Shown: piece by piece, positions 7,187-25,427 of the stretch
How positions within the stretch are numbered: position 1 is the stretch's first letter
Layout: the number at the start of each line of letters is the position of its first letter
DNA from: a virus
Strand: one strand, 5' to 3'
DNA: 25,427 nucleotides
Virus record (IMG/VR): IMGVR_UViG_3300034152_000499
Location: 1-25,427 of that record
The notes under the pieces: model-generated
Databases searched by the model: none
Told to the model about the DNA's origin: nothing
What the model saw: the letters and a program-made list of their open reading frames with translations, nothing else
Translations under genes and position numbers: made by a program

Positions 7187-8095
7187 TTAGACTAACCTGA
7201 AAACTTTTTTGACGATGGAAGATTTTGGAAAAAGTTCTGCATAAACGGATGATACTTCTGTTAAATCAAACATTTCCTGATATTGTAATGAATTTGAGGG
7301 CGCTCTTTTTCCAAACGCCCCGTTGTATGCATAATGTAATGATGCGAAAACTTCTCTGTTTTTGGAAAAAGATTGATACAGTGGTTGAGCATTTCCAGTA
7401 ATATTTGCAATTAATCCAAATTTACAAGATACTATGTAACCGAGAACATGTTTCTTAAATTTTTCTTCATCCAATGGAGTCTTTTTACCAAATTTTTCTT
7501 CTAATAGTTTTGCATAATCCGTTAAAATTTTATTTACCTGTCTGTTTGAATTGAATTCTTTCCTCATAAATTTAACTATTTCAGCAGTATCTCTTGTGAT
7601 TTCTCTTTGTTTAACACCAAACAATAAATGAAAAACTTCAGAGTAATATTTTACAAAATAGGGATTAAATGCTTTATAGAAACCAGATGGTTTCAAATGG
7701 GCAACCAAATGCATACATTCGTGAACAACCGTTTCAGCAACTTCTTCATTCTTTGCAGTTCCCCACGATGTCATGCTGTTGTCCATAAAAATATATACTT
7801 TTTTGTGTGGTCTGTAATACATTGCAAATGCATCGTTCATCTGAACATTAATTTTAAAAACTTTTCTTTTCACCCAAGAAAAGATTCCTTTAGTTAGAAA
7901 ACATGGAATTATTATTTCATTTTGAATCATTTTCTCTAACTGTGGATAATAATTAGATGATGCTCCAGCCTTTTCCAGTGTTTTTAAAGTGGCTTTTATC
8001 AGAGAATCGGAAGTATAAAATGCAACACCATCAATAACAGTAACTTGTCGAGTGTTTGTTGGAAGTGCAAATAACTCATTAATATCTTTTTTCAT
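7187..8095 (-). CDS. HExxH zinc metallopeptidase-like protein
   Basis: A 302-aa protein with a gluzincin/zincin-type motif VHECMH (His125, Glu126, His129) inside a hydrophobic helix (VAETVVHECMHLVAH). This is the usual zinc-binding and catalytic arrangement of metallopeptidases. It is preceded by a beta strand (VYIFMDNSM), as in many minimal zincins. The third zinc ligand is not obvious; candidates are Glu or His residues in the helical C-terminal half. There is no signal peptide. The gene lies between the terminase and the tape-measure-like gene, 13 bp from the latter, so a role in virion protein maturation is attractive but only inferred. It lacks the JAB/MPN signature and is therefore not an obvious Ubl deconjugase. 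Start: ATG after a GGGAG Shine-Dalgarno sequence. Confidence 0.6.
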   Translation of the reverse strand: MKKDINELFALPTNTRQVTVIDGVAFYTSDSLIKATLKTLEKAGASSNYYPQLEKMIQNEIIIPCFLTKGIFSWVKRKVFKINVQMNDAFAMYYRPHKKVYIFMDNSMTSWGTAKNEEVAETVVHECMHLVAHLKPSGFYKAFNPYFVKYYSEVFHLLFGVKQREITRDTAEIVKFMRKEFNSNRQVNKILTDYAKLLEEKFGKKTPLDEEKFKKHVLGYIVSCKFGLIANITGNAQPLYQSFSKNREVFASLHYAYNGAFGKRAPSNSLQYQEMFDLTEVSSVYAELFPKSSIVKKVFRLV

Positions 8096-14257: not shown

Positions 14258-14642
14258 TTTCAAAAAACTCCTTTTCTGTATTTTGATTTTGCCATTTCTG
14301 GCTGTCTTTCTCTGGATTTTCACGCCATTTTTCTACGTCGATTTCTGTGTATGTTTCCAAAATTGCTATTCCCAATGCGGTCAGTTTTATAGCATTTTCA
14401 TACAATTCAACTGGACCTCCATTTTCATGTTCAGATTCATAACAACTCAATAACCATTCTGGAAACTTTTCTTTTTTTGACCACGGGCCTTGATACGACA
14501 ATTCCATATCATTTAGATATCGTTGAATCATGACTAGAAAACTGGCTGGATTTAAGCATTTGACGTTTTTGTATTCACCAAATACTTTTTTTTCATAAGC
14601 ATTTTCTTTTAGCACTAATCTAATTACATCTTCAAGTTTCAT
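14250..14642 (-). CDS. Small helical protein, possibly MazG-like
   Basis: A 130-aa protein starting at the ATG at 14642 (MKLEDVIRL). This ATG has AAGGAG eight bases upstream and overlaps the FolE2 stop as ATGA; the longer frame from 14684 is less likely. It appears all-alpha, with a middle acidic segment (CYESEHENGG) followed by a hydrophobic helix (YENAIKLTALGIAILETY). This layout recalls small phage MazG-like or dNTP-pyrophosphohydrolase-related proteins, which share helices with acidic metal ligands, but the typical EExxE motif is not evident. It is coupled to FolE2 upstream and overlaps the acidic-protein gene by 8 bp, so a nucleotide-metabolism role is plausible only by context. Confidence 0.6.
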   Translation of the reverse strand: MKLEDVIRLVLKENAYEKKVFGEYKNVKCLNPASFLVMIQRYLNDMELSYQGPWSKKEKFPEWLLSCYESEHENGGPVELYENAIKLTALGIAILETYTEIDVEKWRENPEKDSQKWQNQNTEKEFFENE

Positions 14643-15514
14643 ATAAATCTCCTTCCGTCTAATCCTTCTGGAACTCCCTTCCAATTTACTGCAATTGCTT
14701 CAGAAGTGTGAATTGACTCTTCATGAATGCATTTAACAATCCAATCGTAAATTGGTAAATCATCAATCGCTTTGGTTATTAATCGAATAGCATCTTCGAC
14801 AAATAGAGGATTTTCAGCAGCAATTTTTGCAATCTCTCTTTCGTCCACACGCTTAATTATTGGATATGGAAGGGTTGGTATAACAGATTCAATCGCTTCA
14901 ATAACGTCCTCCAACCAAACATATTGTCCTTTATCCACAATGGATTCGACTAACACATCTGCATATGATCTTTGGTTATGGGGATACCCTCTTTCAGAAC
15001 AAGAATCTAAATGATTACAAAGTTCTGCTGAACATGGGCAATATGAAGCATATTGAATTTTAACACCCTGATAAAAGGTATAGTGATATCTGGTTAAATC
15101 GATACGGTCTTGAATCAATCTTCCTTCAAATCGACATGGGTAATATATAGGAAAACTATATTTACTTACTGGAGATTTCCTTTCCATCGGAAGTCGAAAT
15201 TCAAATTTCATGAAAGCATTTTTACTTCCAACGTTTTTTGCAATATCCATTAATATAGTTTTTACCAGAGTTTGTTTTAGAGGTTGGTATAGATACTTGC
15301 GCAAAGTTCTCAACAATCTAGACATTGAAATACCTTTTGCACGACTATCTAAATTTGTTGTCATAGAAACGTTTGCAACCAGATCATAAAATTCAATTCC
15401 ATCAATTTTGTATTTACTTTCGAGTCGGAATGGAACTTCCACGTTCTCTACACCAACCTGTTTTATTGATATCGGAATATCAGGTTTTGTTTCTTGAATA
15501 TCTGGCAAATTCAT
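14639..15514 (-). CDS. folE2: GTP cyclohydrolase IB, FolE2 family
   Basis: A 291-aa enzyme of the FolE2/MptA family, which converts GTP to 7,8-dihydroneopterin triphosphate, the first step shared by folate and 7-deazaguanine (preQ0/queuosine) synthesis. Family hallmarks are in order. The N-terminal IQETKPDIPISIKQVGVENV matches the usual opening. A KGISMSR motif lies at 60-66 and a KSPVS motif at 113-117. The metal and catalytic region is SYCPCSAEL (Cys159/Cys161), then PHNQRSYADV (His179). NPLFVEDAIR, with Glu240, and ESIHTSEAIAVN complete the site. Length is typical and all key regions are present. A short Cys-containing insertion (NHLDSCSERGY) separates the Cys and His motifs. In phages such enzymes often feed 7-deazaguanine DNA modification; no partner gene is in view here. 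Start: ATG after AGAAGGAG. Confidence 0.92.
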   Translation of the reverse strand: MNLPDIQETKPDIPISIKQVGVENVEVPFRLESKYKIDGIEFYDLVANVSMTTNLDSRAKGISMSRLLRTLRKYLYQPLKQTLVKTILMDIAKNVGSKNAFMKFEFRLPMERKSPVSKYSFPIYYPCRFEGRLIQDRIDLTRYHYTFYQGVKIQYASYCPCSAELCNHLDSCSERGYPHNQRSYADVLVESIVDKGQYVWLEDVIEAIESVIPTLPYPIIKRVDEREIAKIAAENPLFVEDAIRLITKAIDDLPIYDWIVKCIHEESIHTSEAIAVNWKGVPEGLDGRRFI

Positions 15515-16070: not shown

Positions 16071-16366
16071 ACGATTTCCTTTGGGTCAAATAAAACTTCC
16101 ACAACCTTTTTTTGTTGTGGAACATCAAACCAATCTCTGTGATAGTAGTATCCATCTTCCTCACAATAATGAGTGTATTTACTTCCCAATACTGAATTTG
16201 GGATAAAACTATATAATTGACCATCGCCAAATTTCTTTGACATTGTACTGTTTATATGTAAGTTGTCTTTAATGTATATAGAATCTGATCCAGGTCTTAA
16301 TTTAAACCCCATTTTCTTCATTTCTGAAATAGATTTTAATGCGACTCTAATTGTTTCAACAATCAT
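16067..16366 (-). CDS. Small protein, first copy of a tandem paralog pair
   Basis: A 99-aa protein of unknown function and a paralog of the following gene. The matching blocks are KKFGDGQLYSF, YTHYCEEDGYYYHRDWF and VLFDPKEIV. Its ATG overlaps the stop codon of the RNA polymerase beta-like gene (ATGA), so it is probably translated from the same message as the polymerase. Position suggests a link with the polymerase or with early takeover, but nothing in the sequence shows this directly. Confidence 0.6.
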   Translation of the reverse strand: MIVETIRVALKSISEMKKMGFKLRPGSDSIYIKDNLHINSTMSKKFGDGQLYSFIPNSVLGSKYTHYCEEDGYYYHRDWFDVPQQKKVVEVLFDPKEIV

Positions 16367-19300
16367 TTGTAATCAACCCCCAAAATGGTTAAATATGAGT
16401 TCAGCAGTTTCACTGATTCTGGTGTTGCATCAAGATTCTTATCTCCATCAATTGGATTAAATGAAATCAAATCTGATATATATTTATTTTTTAAATCTAT
16501 ACAGTCAGACTTTGTCGTTAAAAATTCATGTAGATTGATTGGAGCATCGTGCCCAATAATACATGCAGTTTCCATTTCACCACATCGTTGACCGCCTTTA
16601 TTTTTTCTTCCCCCAAGTGGTTGTAAAGTTCTCTTTGCGTAACTACCAATACCACGAGCAGCCAATTTTGCTTCAGCAATATGAACCATTCTGAAGAAAT
16701 ACTGGTAACCAACTGCAATTGGGTTTTCAAGTTCTCTTTTAGCAATGGGATCATATACCCTTTGTTTGAATTGAGTTCCGCTTAAGCTCATAGCTTCTTC
16801 CAAATCTTCAAAACGAACTGATTCAAAAGGTGGTTGTATAAATGCAATACTGTCTATGAATTCTTCATCAATAATATCAGGTAGTTGACTTTCAAATTGT
16901 TCTGATAGCCATCCATCTTTGGTTTTGTCAATTGTCTTAACATATTCCATCAGATATTCTTTAACTTCATCTTGTGTATGACTTGTTTTCAACATATCTT
17001 TCAGAACATTTTTCAAATCCATAACTGACATTGATAGATGTAGTTCATACAATTGACCAATGTTCATTCGTGAAATAATACCCAATGGATTGATACAAAT
17101 ATCAAGATGGCGTCCGTCTGGTAGTTGCGGCATCTTTTCTTGATACTCAATGCGAGAAATGACACCCTTGTTACCATGTCTATTTCCAAGTTTATCTCCC
17201 ACACGTATATTTCTGAAATGTATACCGAACATTTCAACTTTGATACCATCTATTTTTTCTTTTTTGACTTTATATTTACCAACGTGTGAAAACATATCCA
17301 AACCATTTTCTTTTATAAACTTATCAGCATCAGATTTATCCAATTTTGATCGTATTATTTTATTAATATAATTTTCTTTATCACGTTGTTGGGTAATTCT
17401 TTCCTCAATCCACTGTTTATATTCTGGAATTTCTGTGTTCCATTCGTTTGCATAAAGATTAATTTCGGATATGATGAATCTTTTTTCTGCTTCAAATTTT
17501 TTCTCTTCCTGAAATACAGAGTAAAAATCATCAGTGTTTAGATTTTTTAAGATTGCATACGGTTCGCCAATTTCAACAATTTCAAGTCTATCTGGCAAAG
17601 GCTTGTATTTTTCTTCTGACAAACTCAACAAAACTTTATGTGGTGGTATATGAAATGACAAATCACGGTAATGAATTGAGGTCAGAACATTCTCTTTTAC
17701 AAGTCGGTCTGAAATAACAATACCATCCTCGTAATTATTACCGTAGTGAACCATAACACCTGTCAGCAAATTTTTACCAAATGTTATGTTACCATCTTGA
17801 CAATAATTGCTTTCAGCTAAAATTTCACCTTTTGTTATTTTATCACCTTCTTTTACATAAATTTTGAAGAATTCCATGTTTTCAACATATATTTTTCTAT
17901 ATGATATGTCAAAAATATCAATAGTTCCATCTTCATAATGAACAATTATATATTTTTCATCTGCATGAATAACCACACCATCTTGTTTTGCAACTTTTGT
18001 TGATTGTGTGTATTTTGTATATAATCCCTCACAGCCAGATGATATAATCGGTCTTTCAAATTTCTTTAGCATAATTGACTGTCTCATCTGTGATGATGAC
18101 ATCTGCAATCTTGTTTGGTCATCGTGTTCGCAGAATGGAACCATCGATACAGGAATCGAAATGGGTGCATGATCAAGAGTGTTTCTTGTAAATTTCAAAT
18201 GATCATCCAAATCAACGTTGGGTAATAGATTTTGCAGAACACCACAATTGTCACGGTCTGGTGTGTCAACCGGACATATTCTTCCATACATTGTGGGGCA
18301 TATATCACGCAAATGTCGTGGTATATTTTCTCTTTTAAATCCACCCGGACCCAAAAGACTGATTCTTGAAAGTTTCGTTAATTGTTCGATTGGATTAATT
18401 GAAAAGTCAAATTGAACAATGTCTGAAACGTTACAAGCTGTTATGATTTGATTTGAATTGATATTGAATTTAGGTTCTCTTTTATCTCTATTTGAAAAAC
18501 ATAAATCAAAAACATTTTTTGCGACAACACCATATAAAATATATTCAAAACATCTTACTCTTTTGTTTAGAAAAGATGTGTCATCAATAAATCCAACTTT
18601 GAATGTTTCAACTAATTCATCCAAGAGATTGTTTTGATTTAAAAATTGTCTTGTCATAATATCGACTTGTGGAATTAATTCAAGAGCATATAATACATCT
18701 TCACCTTTTGATTTTGCAGTATATTTTGAATAGATGCGTCCGATCTCAAGAATGAAATCGTCTTGGCTCCACCCTCTTGATTCCTCCATCATTTCGTATA
18801 GATCATGCAGTAATAATTCATATAATGTTGCTGATGGATGATCGATTTTTTGTCGTGGTGCTGTCAAGTTAAATTTCTGAATTGTTTGATTAACACCAAA
18901 ATATGCAAAAATCATAGATGCCATCGGGACTTTTTTGCCCAAGAAACTCATCTTGACAAATGGAAATTCCCGATCCTTCAATGCCATTATAGTTGCGACA
19001 TTTGTTCTTAGTTTAACAGATTCTCCCCTTGTTACCACTGGAATGTCAAATAATTGAAATAATGGAATTTTCTTTCTTCCGTTGATGAAAATGTAATTGT
19101 CATCGATGAGTTTTGGTATAAACATACTCAGATCAACAACGGAGGTTCCTTTTTTCAACCTTATAACAAGGGTTTGTTTTAGCGTTCTAGCAATTTCTCC
19201 AGATATAAATCTTGAATCTTTCAAACCCAACTCTTCGATTTGAAATCCAATATTATGAACTGGTTGTAATATTTGTGAGACTACTCCCAAAATATCGGAG

Positions 19301-19371
19301 TAGTCTCTCTTACGAATGGTAAAAATATTGTCTTCGTTTTGTATTGCAAAGTGAGGATTTATTAGATTCAA
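16363..19371 (-). CDS. DNA-directed RNA polymerase beta-subunit homolog (phage RpoB-like)
   Basis: A 1002-aa single-chain beta subunit, about three quarters the length of E. coli RpoB. Conserved blocks appear in order. The fork/rifampicin-pocket region is at 316-344 (VQFDFSINP...RISLLGPGG). CPTMYGRICPVDTPDRDNCG is at 358-377. FCEHDDQTR is at 413-421, where bacterial RpoB has FLEHDDANR. Active-site contacts are NYEDGIVIS at 546-554 (Glu548-Asp549) and GDKLGNRHGNKGV at 725-737 (Lys727 and Lys735). NPLGIISRMNIGQ is at 761-773, and the C-terminal clamp piece LQPLGGRKNKGGQRCGEME is at 917-933. Thus the catalytic core looks complete; the missing length is mostly lineage-specific insertions and lobes. 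It lies downstream of the beta' gene with a 4-nt ATGA overlap, the reverse of bacterial rpoB-rpoC order. Several rifampicin-site residues differ (see findings). Confidence 0.95.
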   Translation of the reverse strand: MNLINPHFAIQNEDNIFTIRKRDYSDILGVVSQILQPVHNIGFQIEELGLKDSRFISGEIARTLKQTLVIRLKKGTSVVDLSMFIPKLIDDNYIFINGRKKIPLFQLFDIPVVTRGESVKLRTNVATIMALKDREFPFVKMSFLGKKVPMASMIFAYFGVNQTIQKFNLTAPRQKIDHPSATLYELLLHDLYEMMEESRGWSQDDFILEIGRIYSKYTAKSKGEDVLYALELIPQVDIMTRQFLNQNNLLDELVETFKVGFIDDTSFLNKRVRCFEYILYGVVAKNVFDLCFSNRDKREPKFNINSNQIITACNVSDIVQFDFSINPIEQLTKLSRISLLGPGGFKRENIPRHLRDICPTMYGRICPVDTPDRDNCGVLQNLLPNVDLDDHLKFTRNTLDHAPISIPVSMVPFCEHDDQTRLQMSSSQMRQSIMLKKFERPIISSGCEGLYTKYTQSTKVAKQDGVVIHADEKYIIVHYEDGTIDIFDISYRKIYVENMEFFKIYVKEGDKITKGEILAESNYCQDGNITFGKNLLTGVMVHYGNNYEDGIVISDRLVKENVLTSIHYRDLSFHIPPHKVLLSLSEEKYKPLPDRLEIVEIGEPYAILKNLNTDDFYSVFQEEKKFEAEKRFIISEINLYANEWNTEIPEYKQWIEERITQQRDKENYINKIIRSKLDKSDADKFIKENGLDMFSHVGKYKVKKEKIDGIKVEMFGIHFRNIRVGDKLGNRHGNKGVISRIEYQEKMPQLPDGRHLDICINPLGIISRMNIGQLYELHLSMSVMDLKNVLKDMLKTSHTQDEVKEYLMEYVKTIDKTKDGWLSEQFESQLPDIIDEEFIDSIAFIQPPFESVRFEDLEEAMSLSGTQFKQRVYDPIAKRELENPIAVGYQYFFRMVHIAEAKLAARGIGSYAKRTLQPLGGRKNKGGQRCGEMETACIIGHDAPINLHEFLTTKSDCIDLKNKYISDLISFNPIDGDKNLDATPESVKLLNSYLTILGVDYK

Positions 19372-22082
19372 TTGATTTTTTCTCCTTTTAATATTTTATC
19401 AAGAACACCGGAATACCTTCCTTCATACATTATTCCTTGTAATATGCTTCTCTTTGGGTTTGAAAATGCCATAGCCAATACCCAACTTTCCTGATTTGGA
19501 ACAGCTTGAATTGAATAGAACTTTGGTTCGACTTCATCTCTGTTGTCTAACAATCTCCATTTGCGATAATTGTGCCACATCAACTGTGAAACAACACATT
19601 CATAATGAACATGGTAGATGTCTTTGTCATAAACATCAAACAAAGAATCCACCAGTTTAACTGGATCGTTGTGATCAAATCGATGAAGCATACTTGAAAC
19701 GGTTGCAAGATCACCAATGATGTCCTGTTGTTTCATATCTGAGTCATCTTGATTTGATTCTCCTTTGATGATGGCCGAACCTGAAGTGTGAAATGTTCTC
19801 AAAACAAGCTGAGTTGATCTCTCACCCAAAGTCTGTGCTGCAAGTATTCCAATGAATCTGCTATTTAAAACATTTTTCAATTCACCATAACACTTATGGC
19901 ATATATTTTTTGATTTACAATATATTGGACTTCTTACATATATTGTTTTTCCTATATTCTCCTTATAATTTTCTCTGGTGATCAAACGAAGTGTTCCGCC
20001 CTTCATCCTCTGCCATCTGTTAATCAGCATGAGAGACTTTCTTTCGTTTTTGACATCTACAGCTAAACAATCCGTTGTGCCACAATTCTCCAAATCATTA
20101 TCAATTTGAAGATTTGCGCATGTGAATATTAGTTTTCGTGACAGATAACCAGAGGTTCCAGTATTCAATGCAACGTCCAAAAGACCCTTACGACTTCCAT
20201 ACGTCGAATAGAAAAATTCTTCTGGAGTCAAACCATCAATCAGATTGTGTTTGATTGGCAATGGCAAAATTTCACCATCAAAGTTTGAGATGTATGCACG
20301 ACTGAATATCAATTGTTTCACTTGATCCCAACTACCCCTCGCTCCAGAGTCGATCATAAAAGCATATTTGAATGTTTTTCTCATTTTCTCAACTATGGAA
20401 TCATCATTTAATGCAATCAACTGATCACGAATTCCACCTTGGTTGTAGATTTCATTTCTCTCATCTTCAGCATTTGGGTAATAGCAATCATCAAGTGACA
20501 TCGTTGAACCGAATAGCGTTGAATATTTAAATCCGATTCTCTTTATTTCATCTAATGTTGCTGCTACTATCTCTTTTGGGTAATTGTCTTTGATTGCATT
20601 CAATATTTTCATAAGACCTTTTTTCTTTACTGGAATTGATATTACAGGAAAATTGTCGGGCAAAGCATCGTTAAAAATCTTTTGCCCTTCAGTGATTTCT
20701 TTTCCTTTATATTCCACTATACTTTCTAAGTCTTTGAATTTATCGGATGTTAATGCATATATACCCAAGATAACATCTTGGCTAGGTGTCGTAGTCAGAC
20801 TCTCATTTGCCGGACTGCTCAGATTGTTTGTAACAAATATCTTTTCAATCACTTCCTGTTTGGCTTCCTTAGATACTGGTATGTAAACCGCCATTTGATC
20901 ACCATCAAAGTCAGCGTTGAATGGTGGACACACCAGTGGGTGTATCTTGATAGAATTACCCATACTGAGTTTTATGTTAAAACCCAACATACCCAATTTA
21001 TGTAGAGATGGTTGACGATTAAGTATACAAACTTCTCCCTGAATGACATTTCTACAAACATGTTCCAATACAGGTGATCTAATTTCCATACATTTTTCAA
21101 CAAAGTCGATGGCTTTGTTGAGAAGTTTGAACTTTCCAATTTCAATCAATTTCTTTGCAATCGGAAGTTTGAATATTTCCAAAACCATAAAATATGGCAA
21201 TGCACATTGATCCAGTTTTAAAGTTGGATCAGGTGTGATAACGGCTCGACCAGAAAAGTCAATTCTTTTTCCGAGAATGTTTCCACGAATCAATCCTTCC
21301 TTCTTTGCCATTTTCTGCAATATTCGTTCGTATAACTCGTTTACATCTTTTTGAAGTTGTTTAAAATACGTGTAATACAGTTCCTTGTCATGGTGAATGT
21401 TGATGGTAGTTTGTTGCATAACCTCTTTTTTGTTCAGAACTTGAACATAATAACGGTTTATTTTATCCATCAACTGTTTGTTTTTACTACCTTTGGTTGG
21501 AGATGATGGTCTCAAATCTGGAGGGAGTACAATGATTTTATTGATCATTAAATTGTCAATCTTATCAAGAACCATTTTCCATTCATCTTGACCATCATCT
21601 ATACCATTTTTCGCAAACACTTCTACCCATTTTTTGATGGCTTCGGCTTTTTCCCATTTATGATCATAACTTTTAATTAGTTCAGGTTGAACAGTAACAT
21701 AATAGTCTTCACCATCTTGGACTAGGACACTTTTTTCACTTTTCATCAAATCATACAATCCAGATTTCAAAGGTTTACCACCTAGATCGCATACCAGATC
21801 ATAAAAAATAGGATTCACAACTTCAATCGGTAATATGATTTTTGCAAATCTTTTTCTACGAACATCGCTGTTTTCGATATCTACCTTGCATAGGTTACAG
21901 GTAGAACCTTTCTTCGACACACCCCAATATGTACCGCATTGGCATGTGTAGTTTTTCACTGGACCGAAAATCTGTTCAGAGAATAAACCATTCGGATGAA
22001 AATATTTTTTATTCATAATTTTCAAAGATGATACCTCTGGAAGATTTTCGCAAAAAGAATCGTAGTCCAATATTTTTGGCAT
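19368..22082 (-). CDS. DNA-directed RNA polymerase beta'-subunit homolog (phage RpoC-like)
   Basis: A 904-aa single-chain beta' subunit containing the catalytic centre. The N-terminal zinc site is CQCG...CNLC (Cys47, 49, 62, 65). The lid/rudder area includes IRGNILGKRIDFSGRAVITP (265-284). Next are RQPSLHKLGMLGF (356-368) and the invariant catalytic loop NADFDGDQM (389-397), with Asp391, 393 and 395 holding magnesium. The bridge helix is FFYSTYGSRKGLLDVALNTG (623-642) with GYLSRKL after it. A second zinc site uses Cys667, 722, 728 and 731. The trigger-loop start is GERSTQLVLRTFHTSG (753-768), with the Arg and His seen in cellular enzymes. The C-terminus ends soon after the conserved SWVLAMAF block. 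All parts needed for catalysis are present. Start: ATG after AAAGGAG. No alpha, omega or sigma gene was recognised nearby. Confidence 0.95.
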   Translation of the reverse strand: MPKILDYDSFCENLPEVSSLKIMNKKYFHPNGLFSEQIFGPVKNYTCQCGTYWGVSKKGSTCNLCKVDIENSDVRRKRFAKIILPIEVVNPIFYDLVCDLGGKPLKSGLYDLMKSEKSVLVQDGEDYYVTVQPELIKSYDHKWEKAEAIKKWVEVFAKNGIDDGQDEWKMVLDKIDNLMINKIIVLPPDLRPSSPTKGSKNKQLMDKINRYYVQVLNKKEVMQQTTINIHHDKELYYTYFKQLQKDVNELYERILQKMAKKEGLIRGNILGKRIDFSGRAVITPDPTLKLDQCALPYFMVLEIFKLPIAKKLIEIGKFKLLNKAIDFVEKCMEIRSPVLEHVCRNVIQGEVCILNRQPSLHKLGMLGFNIKLSMGNSIKIHPLVCPPFNADFDGDQMAVYIPVSKEAKQEVIEKIFVTNNLSSPANESLTTTPSQDVILGIYALTSDKFKDLESIVEYKGKEITEGQKIFNDALPDNFPVISIPVKKKGLMKILNAIKDNYPKEIVAATLDEIKRIGFKYSTLFGSTMSLDDCYYPNAEDERNEIYNQGGIRDQLIALNDDSIVEKMRKTFKYAFMIDSGARGSWDQVKQLIFSRAYISNFDGEILPLPIKHNLIDGLTPEEFFYSTYGSRKGLLDVALNTGTSGYLSRKLIFTCANLQIDNDLENCGTTDCLAVDVKNERKSLMLINRWQRMKGGTLRLITRENYKENIGKTIYVRSPIYCKSKNICHKCYGELKNVLNSRFIGILAAQTLGERSTQLVLRTFHTSGSAIIKGESNQDDSDMKQQDIIGDLATVSSMLHRFDHNDPVKLVDSLFDVYDKDIYHVHYECVVSQLMWHNYRKWRLLDNRDEVEPKFYSIQAVPNQESWVLAMAFSNPKRSILQGIMYEGRYSGVLDKILKGEKIN

Positions 22083-22087
22083 GGGCT

Positions 22088-22306
22088 TTACTCCTTTATT
22101 TTTTCTTTTACTGCATCAAGTAAGAGATGTATGTGTCCTCTTACCCTTTTCGCAATGATTTCATCGATTTTAGGCATTATTAAATTGATTATTGTTTCAA
22201 TGTCATCTTGTGATAAACGAATCATTTTAGCTTCTATTGATTCTTCAACTATTTCTTCAACAATGGGTTGAAAAACTTCTTTAAATGATTTTTCTTGTTC
22301 ACTCAT
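22088..22306 (-). CDS. Small helical protein between the Ubl module and RNA polymerase genes
   Basis: A 72-aa acidic, all-helical protein with a Glu-rich N-terminal half (VEEIVEESIEAKM) and an amphipathic C-terminal half. There is no recognised family. Its ATG overlaps the stop of the E2-like gene by 4 bases, and its stop is 5 bases from the beta' gene start, so it links the two modules in one transcript. It was considered as an omega-like polymerase subunit because of size and place, but the omega-type motif pattern is not visible. Confidence 0.55.
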   Translation of the reverse strand: MSEQEKSFKEVFQPIVEEIVEESIEAKMIRLSQDDIETIINLIMPKIDEIIAKRVRGHIHLLLDAVKEKIKE

Positions 22307-22731
22307 ACTTTTACACTCTCATATTGATTTTTTCCTGGAACGAAGAAACAACTCAAAAGATTCCAGACTCTCAAGACAATTCTGATGTCATGTATCAAAT
22401 TTTCACTTACGGGTTTTGCTTTCATATAATCTGGCATACAAAAAACTCCAGTTTCATAATCAACATTCGGATGTACACCACCAAATGTCTGAATTGATTG
22501 CAGTTTTTCTATTCCATCTTTGTCAATAAAAGTTCGAGTTATAAACCCCTTTAGATGATACATTTCATCTGATTTTATAATTCTCTCTTCTGCTTCATTT
22601 CTTATTCCGACAGGTTCCATCGGATCATAGTATATTGTCAAAATTCCTTCTGTTGTTCCGGGTGGTGTAATTGTTTTGTTAGGCGGAATTTGTTTCTTTA
22701 ATGAGAACAATTTTTGTCTCTTTCCCTTCAC
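22303..22731 (-). CDS. E2-like (ubiquitin-conjugating-type) protein
   Basis: About 142 aa from a GTG at 22731; a TTG at 22710 behind AAAGAG is an alternative start giving 135 aa. The core FGGVHPNVDYETGVFCMPDY (residues 83-102) looks like the active-site region of ubiquitin-conjugating enzymes. There an HPN tripeptide (87-89 here) precedes the catalytic Cys (Cys98 here) by about 10 residues; the spacing here is one residue longer. Before it are two or three strand-like segments (ILTIYYDP, GFITRTFID, KLQSIQTF), matching the E2 beta meander. After it is a helix (IHDIRIVLRVWNLLSCFF), matching the E2 helix that follows the Cys. The gene overlaps the end of the E1-like gene by up to 53 nt and couples to the 72-aa gene. 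E2 function is inferred from motif and context; distant Prok-E2 families are the likely relatives. Confidence 0.65.
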   Translation of the reverse strand: MKGKRQKLFSLKKQIPPNKTITPPGTTEGILTIYYDPMEPVGIRNEAEERIIKSDEMYHLKGFITRTFIDKDGIEKLQSIQTFGGVHPNVDYETGVFCMPDYMKAKPVSENLIHDIRIVLRVWNLLSCFFVPGKNQYESVKV

Positions 22732-23587
22732 GAATTAGTTGAACAAAGAATATACAATCCCCACTCATTCTTGACACGATGTTTGACAATTTTTGCATTA
22801 CATCATATTCTCCAGTTATCGATCCTCTCTGAATAATATCATAGAATTTAGATGGTGATCCATGTAAACCACTGAATGTTTTCCAATCATTTTCTTCACC
22901 AATGAAAACTGGTAAATCAGATTTTTGGTTTGCAACCATTATCGGTTTGGTGTTGATATCAACTCTTCTGAGTCGCTCATAACCTTTTGGTGCTTCATAG
23001 ATCATATCATCAATATTATCAGTCATTTCAAGAGTATCGCTTATAGGTTGACAAAAATCCTGTGTTATTTTATCCAATCGGAACATTGAAGATGACTGTT
23101 GTTTTATCAAATCAAATATATGTCTAGAAACAAATATTTTCTTGATATAATATGCAGCATCATCAATTGTGTTTCTACTGAGTTCAAGTATATACTTGCC
23201 CAGAACAGGTTTGTCATATTTCACATACCTCTCGCAATCAATTACAAGAGTTCTTTCGGAGATGAATAGTCTTACATCAATTTTTCCATATCTTGAACAG
23301 CCAACATCACGACAATCAATCAGAAGGTCTGTCTTGGGTATCTCTGTCTTTAGTTCGTCGTAACTAGAGGGTATGGTGATTGAATCGCACCCCAAATATT
23401 TTGTCAAAGATTCAACTTTGGATTTTCCAACATCGTTTTTACGATATATTGAATTTCTCAAGTTGTTTTCTTCAACAATGTCAGGGTCTATTATAATAAG
23501 TTTTTCAATTCCATCTATGTTTGATAAGTGGTGGGCAACAAAACTACCCAAACTTCCAACTCCAATAACGCCAATTGTTTTTACCAT
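22679..23587 (-). CDS. E1/ThiF-like adenylating enzyme, copy 1
   Basis: About 302 aa from the ATG at 23587, chosen because GAGGTG lies four bases upstream; a GTG at 23593 is also in frame. The N-terminal Rossmann domain has GVGSLG (residues 9-14). The acidic strand is IIIDPDIVEENNLR (Asp34, Asp36, Arg44) and DVGKSKVESL follows (Lys55, Lys57). These match the ATP-binding and adenylation residues of the ThiF/MoeB/E1 family. The DN motif that normally follows is replaced by LLIDCRDVGCSRYG, in which Asp91 is kept and nearby Cys residues could be thioester candidates. The C-terminal 170 residues are not typical and may form a partner-binding domain. Such enzymes adenylate the C-terminal Gly of a ubiquitin-like protein. 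The gene follows the Ubl gene and overlaps the E2-like gene. Confidence 0.8.
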   Translation of the reverse strand: MVKTIGVIGVGSLGSFVAHHLSNIDGIEKLIIIDPDIVEENNLRNSIYRKNDVGKSKVESLTKYLGCDSITIPSSYDELKTEIPKTDLLIDCRDVGCSRYGKIDVRLFISERTLVIDCERYVKYDKPVLGKYILELSRNTIDDAAYYIKKIFVSRHIFDLIKQQSSSMFRLDKITQDFCQPISDTLEMTDNIDDMIYEAPKGYERLRRVDINTKPIMVANQKSDLPVFIGEENDWKTFSGLHGSPSKFYDIIQRGSITGEYDVMQKLSNIVSRMSGDCIFFVQLIREGKETKIVLIKETNSA

Positions 23588-23600
23588 TATCACCTCTAGG

Positions 23601-23627
23601 TTGGGGAGTCAAGAGATGACTCCCCAA
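23601..23627 (-). terminator. Hairpin between the Ubl gene and the E1-like gene
   Basis: A perfect 10-bp inverted repeat, TTGGGGAGTC/GACTCCCCAA, with a 7-base loop. It begins 18 bases after the Ubl stop and ends shortly before the Shine-Dalgarno sequence of the E1-like gene. There is no U-run after it on the minus strand, so full termination is doubtful. It may protect the 3' end of an abundant Ubl message or reduce read-through into the enzyme genes, giving more Ubl than E1/E2. Confidence 0.6.
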
Positions 23628-23645
23628 TTTTTAATGACTACTTTA

Positions 23646-24137
23646 TTAGCAGCCTTTCTTTCCGGCTGGTTTCAGAAATTCGACGTTATCATCGATCTGA
23701 ATTGCGTAATCATCTTCGACGTTTTTGCCGTTGACGATACCTTTTGACATCGGATCAACATTCAGAACCTCTGCCAACAGATCACGAACTTCTCCAACTG
23801 TGCGACCAGCAACGGAGAAGTCACCGGCTGCGGCACCGCTGGAAACACGGATTGTTGTGGTATTTCTGTTACCGAATTGTTTTTCCGGTTTGTCGATGAC
23901 GCTGGTGAATGTCCCGGCCAATTGATCTTCAATTTCCGGTGTGTCCATTTCACCTTCAGGGCCAGCGGCTGCGATTGCGGCCGGACTGTTGGCTCCGTAG
24001 GATTCCATGATGGCGTCGATGACAAAGTCTTTTCGTTTTTTGGTCAAACCAGGCAAATCCAGTTCGTAGACACACATACGTTTCAGTTCTTTGTCGGTTT
24101 TTGCTTCCAGTTCTTCACGAGTAAAGTAGTAAGGCAT
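23646..24137 (-). CDS. SAP-like domain fused to ubiquitin-like beta-grasp protein
   Basis: A 163-aa protein with two parts. Residues 5-46 (FTREELEAKTDKELKRMC...LTKKRKDFVIDAI) look like a SAP/HeH-type helix-extended-loop-helix domain, often nucleic-acid or protein binding. Residues 47-92 are an Ala/Gly/Glu/Pro-rich linker. Residues 93-163 look like a ThiS/MoaD/ubiquitin-type beta-grasp: TTTIRVSS and DFSVAG strands, helix VGEVRDLLAEVLN, GIVNGKNVEDDYAI, and NVEFLKPAG. The C-terminus is AGKKGC: a penultimate Gly rather than a free Gly-Gly, so trimming of the last Cys may be needed before activation, or the Cys itself may have a function. The gene is flanked by two E1-like genes. It is much richer in G+C than its neighbours (38 of 60 bases at 23941-24000 by my count). 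Start: ATG after AAAGGA. Confidence 0.72.
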   Translation of the reverse strand: MPYYFTREELEAKTDKELKRMCVYELDLPGLTKKRKDFVIDAIMESYGANSPAAIAAAGPEGEMDTPEIEDQLAGTFTSVIDKPEKQFGNRNTTTIRVSSGAAAGDFSVAGRTVGEVRDLLAEVLNVDPMSKGIVNGKNVEDDYAIQIDDNVEFLKPAGKKGC

Positions 24138-24198
24138 TTTTCAGAATTCCTTTCGAGATTTGTTTTGTTACTTTTTTTGGTTAAAGGTTACGGCTAAA

Positions 24199-24876
24199 TT
24201 AGCCAACTCGACGCTTTGTATCTGCAACCATGAGTTTGAAATCTACATATGTCTCGTCACCAGCAATACGATCTGAACTGATGAGATTGTAGAAAGCGCA
24301 ACACATGAATACTGCAATACCAGCGTTCACGAAAAAGAGTTGTGGTTCTGATTCAGACAACTCTTCACAAGACATTTCTTCGGGTGTTTGATCTTCAGGA
24401 TTGGCGATTTCTGGATGAAATCTGCATAAGTCTGGAGTTAGTTCACTACCCTCCTTCTTGACATATATTTGAACATTTCCATCAAGAAGCTCGTTACCAC
24501 CAGAGATCAAAACAACACTACTCAATGTTCTGCAATACTCTGATACAATTTTCCTTGTCTTGTGGTTATCCACGCATAGAAACACTATGTCATTATTTTG
24601 TATTACTTCGGAAACTGTATCATTGTTGATGTAAATCGGAATGGATGTGCAATCTATTCCTTTAAATCGAATAGAAAGTTCTTTAGCTTTTGATTCAGCT
24701 TTATTTTCTCCTACCCTTTTGAACTCTTGTCTTTCTTTATTCTTTTCCTCGTAGGAGTCGCCATCGATTAGGGTCATTGAGAAACTGTTATAACCCTGCG
24801 AGTAATAGAGATATCGGGTCAGCAGGTTGACCAAAACTGACCCGATTCCACCGAGACCTATGATTTTAATTTGCAC
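24199..24876 (-). CDS. E1/ThiF-like adenylating enzyme, copy 2 (PRTRC-ThiF-like)
   Basis: About 225 aa if it begins at the GTG at 24876 (MQIKIIGLGG), which places the first strand at the N-terminus; a TTG at 24897 would add seven residues. Numbered from the TTG, the Rossmann loop GLGGIGS is at 14-20. The acidic strand and Arg motif are in LIDGDSYEEKNKERQEF (Asp45, Asp47, Asn53, Arg56, Gln57). GENKAESKAK carries Lys66, and FLCVDNHKTRK has the DN pair (Asp110-Asn111) of active E1/MoeB/ThiF enzymes. A Cys in EEMSCEEL (177) is a possible catalytic Cys, followed by SEPQLFFVNAGIAVFM, a segment I associate with PRTRC-type and phage ThiF proteins. All adenylation residues look intact. It lies 61 bp before the Ubl gene and overlaps the upstream acidic gene. 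Confidence 0.8.
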   Translation of the reverse strand: MQIKIIGLGGIGSVLVNLLTRYLYYSQGYNSFSMTLIDGDSYEEKNKERQEFKRVGENKAESKAKELSIRFKGIDCTSIPIYINNDTVSEVIQNNDIVFLCVDNHKTRKIVSEYCRTLSSVVLISGGNELLDGNVQIYVKKEGSELTPDLCRFHPEIANPEDQTPEEMSCEELSESEPQLFFVNAGIAVFMCCAFYNLISSDRIAGDETYVDFKLMVADTKRRVG

Positions 24877-25427
24877 GTTTATTTCTTGCGTTTGCAACCC
24901 TCTCTTTCAACCATTCGGTTAGTGAAAATTGAGGAACTTCGTCTGGTGTTGGAATTTCTTTTCCATCATATGGTTCGTCATCAAATTCATGGCTCTTACC
25001 ATGTAGAAAGTCATCACTATTGTATTGATCTTCAACCATATCATGGATGTCTGGATCATACATCATTGATCCATCATCACGATCAAGAATGTCTGCGTCT
25101 TCTGTTGACACGATCATTACATCGTCATCTGGATCAATAAAATCATCATCTATAGTATCAAGGTATGTATCGGCATCAGCCATCAAATAATCATCATCTT
25201 CAATTATAAGATCATTGTCATCATCATCTTCTTCCCAATCAAAATAATTCAATGCCCATTCCAGTTTGTGTTTCAGAAAAACACACTTCTCGCATGGATT
25301 TGAATTTTTGTCAATTGCATTGTTTCCATCAAAATTCACTGGAGTTATATTTCGTGATGGGCCAACATTTAGTGGTGAAGTTGGTTTGCCTGCTGGTGGA
25401 ATCCCCCAAGCGGACCAATCATCATCA
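24866..25427 (-). CDS. Acidic protein of unknown function (5' partial)
   Basis: The frame is open to the right edge of the window. A GTG exists at 25339 but lacks a Shine-Dalgarno sequence and the frame continues upstream (...WSAWGIPPAGKPTSPLN), so the start is probably outside. The visible 186 residues include a Pro/Gly-rich N-terminal piece, a PCEKC (CxxC) motif, a short helix, then a very acidic Asp/Glu-rich stretch of roughly 100 residues. The C-terminus is a basic helix (SLTEWLKERVANARNKR). No family is recognised. Its 3' end overlaps the E1-like gene, so it belongs to the same operon and could be a substrate, adaptor or regulator of the Ubl module; this is inference from position. Confidence 0.6.
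   Translation of the reverse strand, partial: DDDWSAWGIPPAGKPTSPLNVGPSRNITPVNFDGNNAIDKNSNPCEKCVFLKHKLEWALNYFDWEEDDDDNDLIIEDDDYLMADADTYLDTIDDDFIDPDDDVMIVSTEDADILDRDDGSMMYDPDIHDMVEDQYNSDDFLHGKSHEFDDEPYDGKEIPTPDEVPQFSLTEWLKERVANARNKRAN

Follow-up and report, generated by a model that had tools for sequence, protein, structure and literature searches.

A ubiquitin-like protein (Ubl) encoded in a virus fragment ends in Gly-Cys, which raises the question of how an activating enzyme (E1) could use this C-terminus. The fragment, a linear stretch of 25,427 bases that makes up the entire virus record, is referred to here as the window. The whole Ubl gene (23646-24137, minus strand) encodes 163 aa, comprising a Rho_N-like domain, a low-confidence linker, the Ubl domain, and a Cys tail. 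Direct reading of the minus strand gave GCC GGA AAG AAA GGC TGC TAA TAA at the 3′ end, corresponding to A-G-K-K-G-C and two stop codons; the stop codon of the gene is at 23646-23648 and the second TAA follows directly. The TGC codon of the terminal Cys163 (23649-23651, minus strand) specifies a one-residue tail, which recurs in relatives. This reading bore out the initial annotation, in which the AGKKGC end of the protein was first pointed out. An Rfam search of the locus gave no match.

The beta-grasp domain of the Ubl (approximately residues 92-162; 23652-23864, minus strand) ends in G-x-K-G, with Gly162 as the presumed E1-reactive glycine. Weak Pfam matches to ThiS/TGS were obtained for the Ubl, and there was no match to Prok_Ub. 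In an AlphaFold model, residues 101-161/162 superposed on residues 15-81 of MoaD in the MoeB-MoaD acyl-adenylate complex (1jwb; Z 5.8) and also aligned with residues 9-76 of ubiquitin. The structural matches listed were mostly ubiquitin-, ISG15-, or MoaD-like, with moderate scores (Z 5.4-6.2 over ~60 residues) and an alignment that covers the Ubl part only. Together with the weak ThiS/TGS matches, the model supports a beta-grasp fold. Since residue 161 or 162 falls on Gly81 of MoaD and Gly76 of ubiquitin in the fold alignment, Cys163 is positioned one residue beyond the reactive glycine. Gly162 is conserved in the family, and Cys163 is the last encoded residue. The Rho_N-like domain at the N-terminus (approximately residues 7-48; 23994-24137, minus strand), for which the Pfam match was significant in the family member L071, hints that the modifier may bind nucleic acids.

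Relatives were gathered with the Ubl itself (one), with an alignment of the neighboring E1, named E1A (23 loci), and with a Ubl alignment (49); several of them are repeats of the same contigs. Removal of redundancy and of the most distant members left a set of 46, which includes the window and one archaeal-MAG contig. The Ubl ends exactly after G-x-K-G in 28 of the 46, nearly all with the stop codon TAA or TAG, and a single Cys follows the motif in 11, the window among them. In one further Ubl (L048:6001-6507), the motif is duplicated in the tail, giving GRKGDRKGC (1/46). Six further tails are each represented by a single Ubl (R, F, YK, LL, VILTK, and one of 67 aa), so that Cys is the last residue in 12 of the 18 tailed Ubls. 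In the longest case (L069:5995-6624), the G-x-K-G core is followed by a 67-residue extension made of charged, helix-like repeats, and this protein is possibly a natural Ubl-fusion precursor. The more distant phage Ubls L020, L022, L023, and L025 also end in G-x-K-G, bringing the count to 32 of 50. Within the set of 46, G-x-K-G is nearly invariant, with Ser replacing the first Gly in one sequence, and the residues downstream of it vary. This pattern is predicted if the Gly is the working end and the rest is trimmed.

A Gly-Gly end was found in none of the 46 phage Ubls and, judging from this comparison, is not the ancestral form in the family. The single Gly to which the initial annotation drew attention is thus true for the window but is the norm of the family rather than an oddity. 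The refuting case named in the initial annotation, in which relatives have a free Gly-Gly and a sequencing error created the window's end, was not borne out: relatives end in G-x-K-G or G-x-K-G-C, never in Gly-Gly. The Cys end is present in 11 other nonredundant relatives on separate metagenome contigs, which use TGC or TGT for the Cys and differ in their Gly and stop codons. Its recurrence in independent contigs with different codons rules out a sequencing error. Read-through or a recoded stop codon was also ruled out, because translation of the members ending in G-x-K-G mostly stops at TAA or TAG rather than TGA, and the tail Cys is encoded by TGC or TGT.

A terminal Cys was encoded by 12 of the 46 Ubl genes compared with 3 of 378 other long ORFs at the same loci (0.8%), with a nominal P of ~2e-15 that ignores relatedness and is overstated because the sequences are related. 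The Gly-Cys end, called unusual in the initial annotation, is a real and indeed unusual feature. The rarity of a terminal Cys elsewhere, and its being the commonest tail, speak for a Cys that is kept and functional. It could be linked by a disulfide to a target or to an E1 or E2 at its catalytic Cys, or undergo an N-to-S acyl shift, in which case reaction at the Gly-Cys bond would give a Gly thioester without ATP. In vitro, a disulfide-type complex with human E1 is known for BfUbb of Bacteroides fragilis, a ubiquitin-like protein that likewise ends in Cys (PMC3352274). However, BfUbb is of the eukaryotic type, is exported, carries a signal sequence, and lacks terminal glycines, and its host has no known activating or conjugating enzymes and apparently lacks them.

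The distribution of the Cys also argues against its retention. On a tree of the concatenated cassette proteins, the Cys state changed at least nine times at equal costs. The tree allows a range from few Cys gains with many losses up to ten gains, and the placement of the window is unsure because of its long branch. These changes indicate that the Cys tail is recurrent and labile. Gain or loss is thus frequent, and the 28 tailless members have the same gene set; moreover, tails such as R, F, YK, and LL exist. No E1, E2, JAB, or Ubl residue convincingly tracked the Cys, and no covariation was detected beyond multiple testing (best p 2.5e-4 in 12,957 tests). We therefore regard a retained and functional Cys as unlikely. 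Slightly less probable still is that the Gly-Cys end as such is a working group, with a thiol that traps E1, E2, or targets by disulfide or makes a Gly thioester. If this were true, part of the phage family would bypass or regulate ATP-dependent activation.

Removal of the Cys would require a protease, and the initial annotation stated that no JAB motif is present in the window. Taken literally, the statement is correct, but it misleads: the terminal ORF (24866-25426, minus strand) encodes the C-terminal part of a JAB (PRTRC_A-like) protein that is cut by the contig end, as revealed by collinear blastp matches. From its second or third residue onward, the fragment aligned with complete JAB homologs from residues ~284-291 onward (E 2e-7 to 8e-6). 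The JAMM motif of the complete homologs is at residues ~130-150, and that of the window phage should be located ~0.4-0.5 kb past the contig end. Thus, the apparent absence of JAB is a truncation artifact. The motif HxH-x7-SxxD is intact in 45 of 45 complete phage JAB homologs (the window's own stretch lies off the contig), and this holds for Cys-ending and Gly-ending operons, whatever the Ubl tail. In all 45 relatives with a complete JAB gene, it is located directly upstream of the E1 gene. The phage JAB matched PRTRC_A (2.5e-11) and also Prok-JAB; a sequence search of the PDB with the JAB part gave no match.

The gene order in relatives is constant: E2_D-like, JAB, E1A, Ubl, second ThiF, HPN/Cys E2-like, rpoC, and rpoB. 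E1A (24199-24897, minus strand) is a ThiF-type, PRTRC-ThiF-like E1 (Pfam ThiF 1.7e-20; PRTRC_ThiF 1.7e-16, which is below the curated cut-off). Its ThiF adenylation motifs are conserved, and C177 is invariant in the family alignment. The second ThiF-like protein, E1B (22679-23593, minus strand; Pfam ThiF 1.5e-11), has a conserved tail. At the C-terminus of this family we observed a strongly conserved ETGAA-type motif with TGAA or TGGA variants, which reads KETNSA in the window. That the ETGAA tail hides a second Ubl was ruled out by a negative comparison with the Ubl profile. The E2-like protein (22303-22731, minus strand) carries an HPN-x8-C signature, in which H87, N89, and C98 are invariant in an alignment of 36. 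For its AlphaFold model (pLDDT 86), the Foldseek and VIA lists contained mostly E2 enzymes, with weak scores (best E 0.16, Z 4.6).

A small ORF of 72 aa without a significant family (22088-22306, minus strand) separates the E2-like gene from rpoC, which encodes a phage RNA polymerase beta-prime subunit (19368-22082, minus strand). A homolog of rpoC is present downstream of the cassette at 46 of 46 loci. The beta subunit gene rpoB (16363-19371, minus strand) is next in the conserved order and was found at 42 of 46 loci within the available DNA. This association, which in the window spans 16363-25426 on the minus strand, suggests that the modifier is linked to phage transcription.

The labile tail would also fit a Cys that is a drifting, tolerated extra on a mostly unprocessed protein, in a system that is noncovalent or partly degenerate. 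However, the family strongly conserves the motifs of E1 and of JAB (JAMM), the HPN/Cys signature of the E2-like protein, and the G-x-K-G of the Ubl, and chance alone would not yield Cys in two-thirds of the tails, though shared ancestry accounts for part of this excess. Drift of this kind appears very improbable to us.

The gene content resembles PRTRC, a plasmid ParB-Ubl-E2-JAB-ThiF cassette, which we equate by gene content with operon type 6d of Iyer et al. 2006 (PMC1779556). Both have the consecutive order B (E2_D), A (JAB), and ThiF, and both have a small Ubl that ends in G-x-K/R-G with or without a tail. Tailless plasmid PRTRC protein C ends in GTKG, GDKG, or GDRG, and tailed versions end in GAKGAHA, GAKGAHARI, GAKGAACAKLT, or longer sequences. 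In contrast to PRTRC, the phage cassette has the Rho_N-like domain at the Ubl N-terminus and the Ubl gene after ThiF, contains the extra second ThiF and the HPN/Cys E2, and is linked to phage RNA polymerase. The relatives carry Ubl, E2_D, JAB, and PRTRC-ThiF-like genes, with a weak E2_D match (Prok-E2_D 0.0014; PRTRC_B 0.09); in the window itself, only part of JAB is encoded, and E2_D falls outside the contig. Scores were below the curated cut-offs for PRTRC_A (43.5 vs. 101.8 bits), PRTRC_B (12.1 vs. 131.45 bits), and PRTRC_ThiF (60.3 vs. 144.75 bits). PRTRC ParB, E, and F had no match among the proteins scanned, i.e., those of the cassette and a few flanking ones, the window being a fragment. 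For these two reasons, we did not class the phage cassette as PRTRC. It is a PRTRC-like Ubl conjugation cassette, a variant of this known kind.

We propose that the Ubl is made as a pro-Ubl with the working C-terminus G159-K-K-G162, which Cys163 would cap. This single residue would be removed by a protease, most likely the JAB/JAMM protein whose gene lies a short way upstream, so that Gly162 is exposed. E1A would then adenylate Gly162 and hand the Ubl on to the E2-like proteins. JAB may also deconjugate the products, which would explain its retention alongside Ubls that are encoded with a Gly end. Direct observation covers the order of the genes, the G-x-K-G core with its varying tails, the JAMM motif that complete relatives keep intact, and the truncated JAB gene; cleavage, the identity of the protease, adenylation, and conjugation are what we infer. 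Overall, we consider it likely that the window encodes the pro-Ubl of a PRTRC-like cassette, and that its Cys cap is removed, most probably by JAB, for activation by E1A. A plain cap does not need to be Cys, yet Cys predominates among the tails, which counts against this model. Taken alone, the terminal Cys is probably an ordinary precursor tail.

JAMM proteins include Mec+ and also QbsD, which removes Cys-Phe after the Gly-Gly of QbsE. In Mycobacterium tuberculosis, the protease Mec+ hydrolyzes the CysO-cysteine adduct, i.e., a Ubl-Gly-Cys bond as in our model (PMC3227635). CysO/Mec+ and QbsE/QbsD differ from the phage system in that they belong to sulfur-carrier pathways, and the Cys is added to CysO enzymatically, whereas that of the phage Ubl is encoded. 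Single extra residues after the reactive Gly are also known from eukaryotes. In humans, deubiquitinases remove a final Cys from the UBB precursor and a final Val from the UBC precursor (PMC10892293), and Rub1 loses a single Asn, whereas Atg12 naturally ends in Gly (PMC10216172). Unlike the phage Ubl with its K-G, UBB, UBC, and Rub1 have Gly-Gly, and their trimming enzymes belong to other classes (Yuh1 for Rub1).

Many peptidases could take off one residue, so the Cys might instead be trimmed by a host carboxypeptidase or by another phage protease. In the window, the product of 7187-8095 (minus strand), a gene adjoining the terminase gene, contains an HExxH motif (VHECMH) with a weak SprT-like match (E 0.054) and is possibly a metallopeptidase. 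However, this match is weak and the gene sits among structural genes, whereas all relatives have JAB linked in the operon, and Mec+ provides a precedent for hydrolysis of the bond in question. Trimming by an enzyme other than JAB is therefore unlikely in our view. The initial annotation had left two options for the Cys, protease removal and thiol or disulfide use; removal is the better supported, and for the use of the thiol we found no positive evidence.

The strongest support for G-x-K-G as a processing point comes from the sequence of a cultured phage. Gp199 of Bacillus phage vB_BauM_KLEB27-3 (OM634661.1, L077:718-1425), annotated as hypothetical, consists of four tandem 57-aa Prok_Ub units. 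Every unit ends in AGVKG, and the final tail is MPRIVVK. The gene adjoins E2_D, JAB, and ThiF genes. At the DNA level, units 2 and 3 share only 81% identity, yet their protein sequences do not differ at all, indicating strong selection on the protein. Eukaryotic polyubiquitin genes are under selection of this kind as well. A single scan of viral contigs and tblastn of phages revealed no relatives of gp199.

A PRTRC-like set was also observed in the small 33-kb Burkholderia phage BgVeeders33 (OK665841.1, L094:4001-7924). It comprises E2_D, JAB with DUF2016, ThiF, and a Ubl in which a long tail follows GTKG; only ThiF is annotated, the others being listed as hypothetical. No relatives of the window Ubl were detected by tblastn in phage isolates, and no bacterial host of the relatives was found. 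The sole locus in named genomes is on a Thermoplasmatales archaeon MAG contig (L076, DAOVGR010000079.1), which carries a close relative of the cassette together with rpoC and rpoB and is probably a misbinned viral contig. Elsewhere in the window, 14639-15514 (minus strand) encodes a GTP cyclohydrolase FolE2 (Pfam GCHY-1, 1.6e-60), which perhaps serves a modified-base or folate pathway of the phage.

In the PMC literature, which mostly does not include subscription journals, we found no account of phages carrying PRTRC-like Ubl cassettes; nor did we find a PMC report on the biochemistry of PRTRC-class JAB proteins as Ubl-maturing enzymes. Loss of 103 Da, detected by mass spectrometry, would tell whether such JAB proteins mature Ubls, and the cultured Bacillus phage with its four-unit poly-Ubl is an accessible system. 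The odd end of the window Ubl points to a complete, conserved Ubl conjugation cassette that a group of large phages shares, in each case beside phage RNA polymerase genes. Like eukaryotes, these phages would make their Ubls as precursors.
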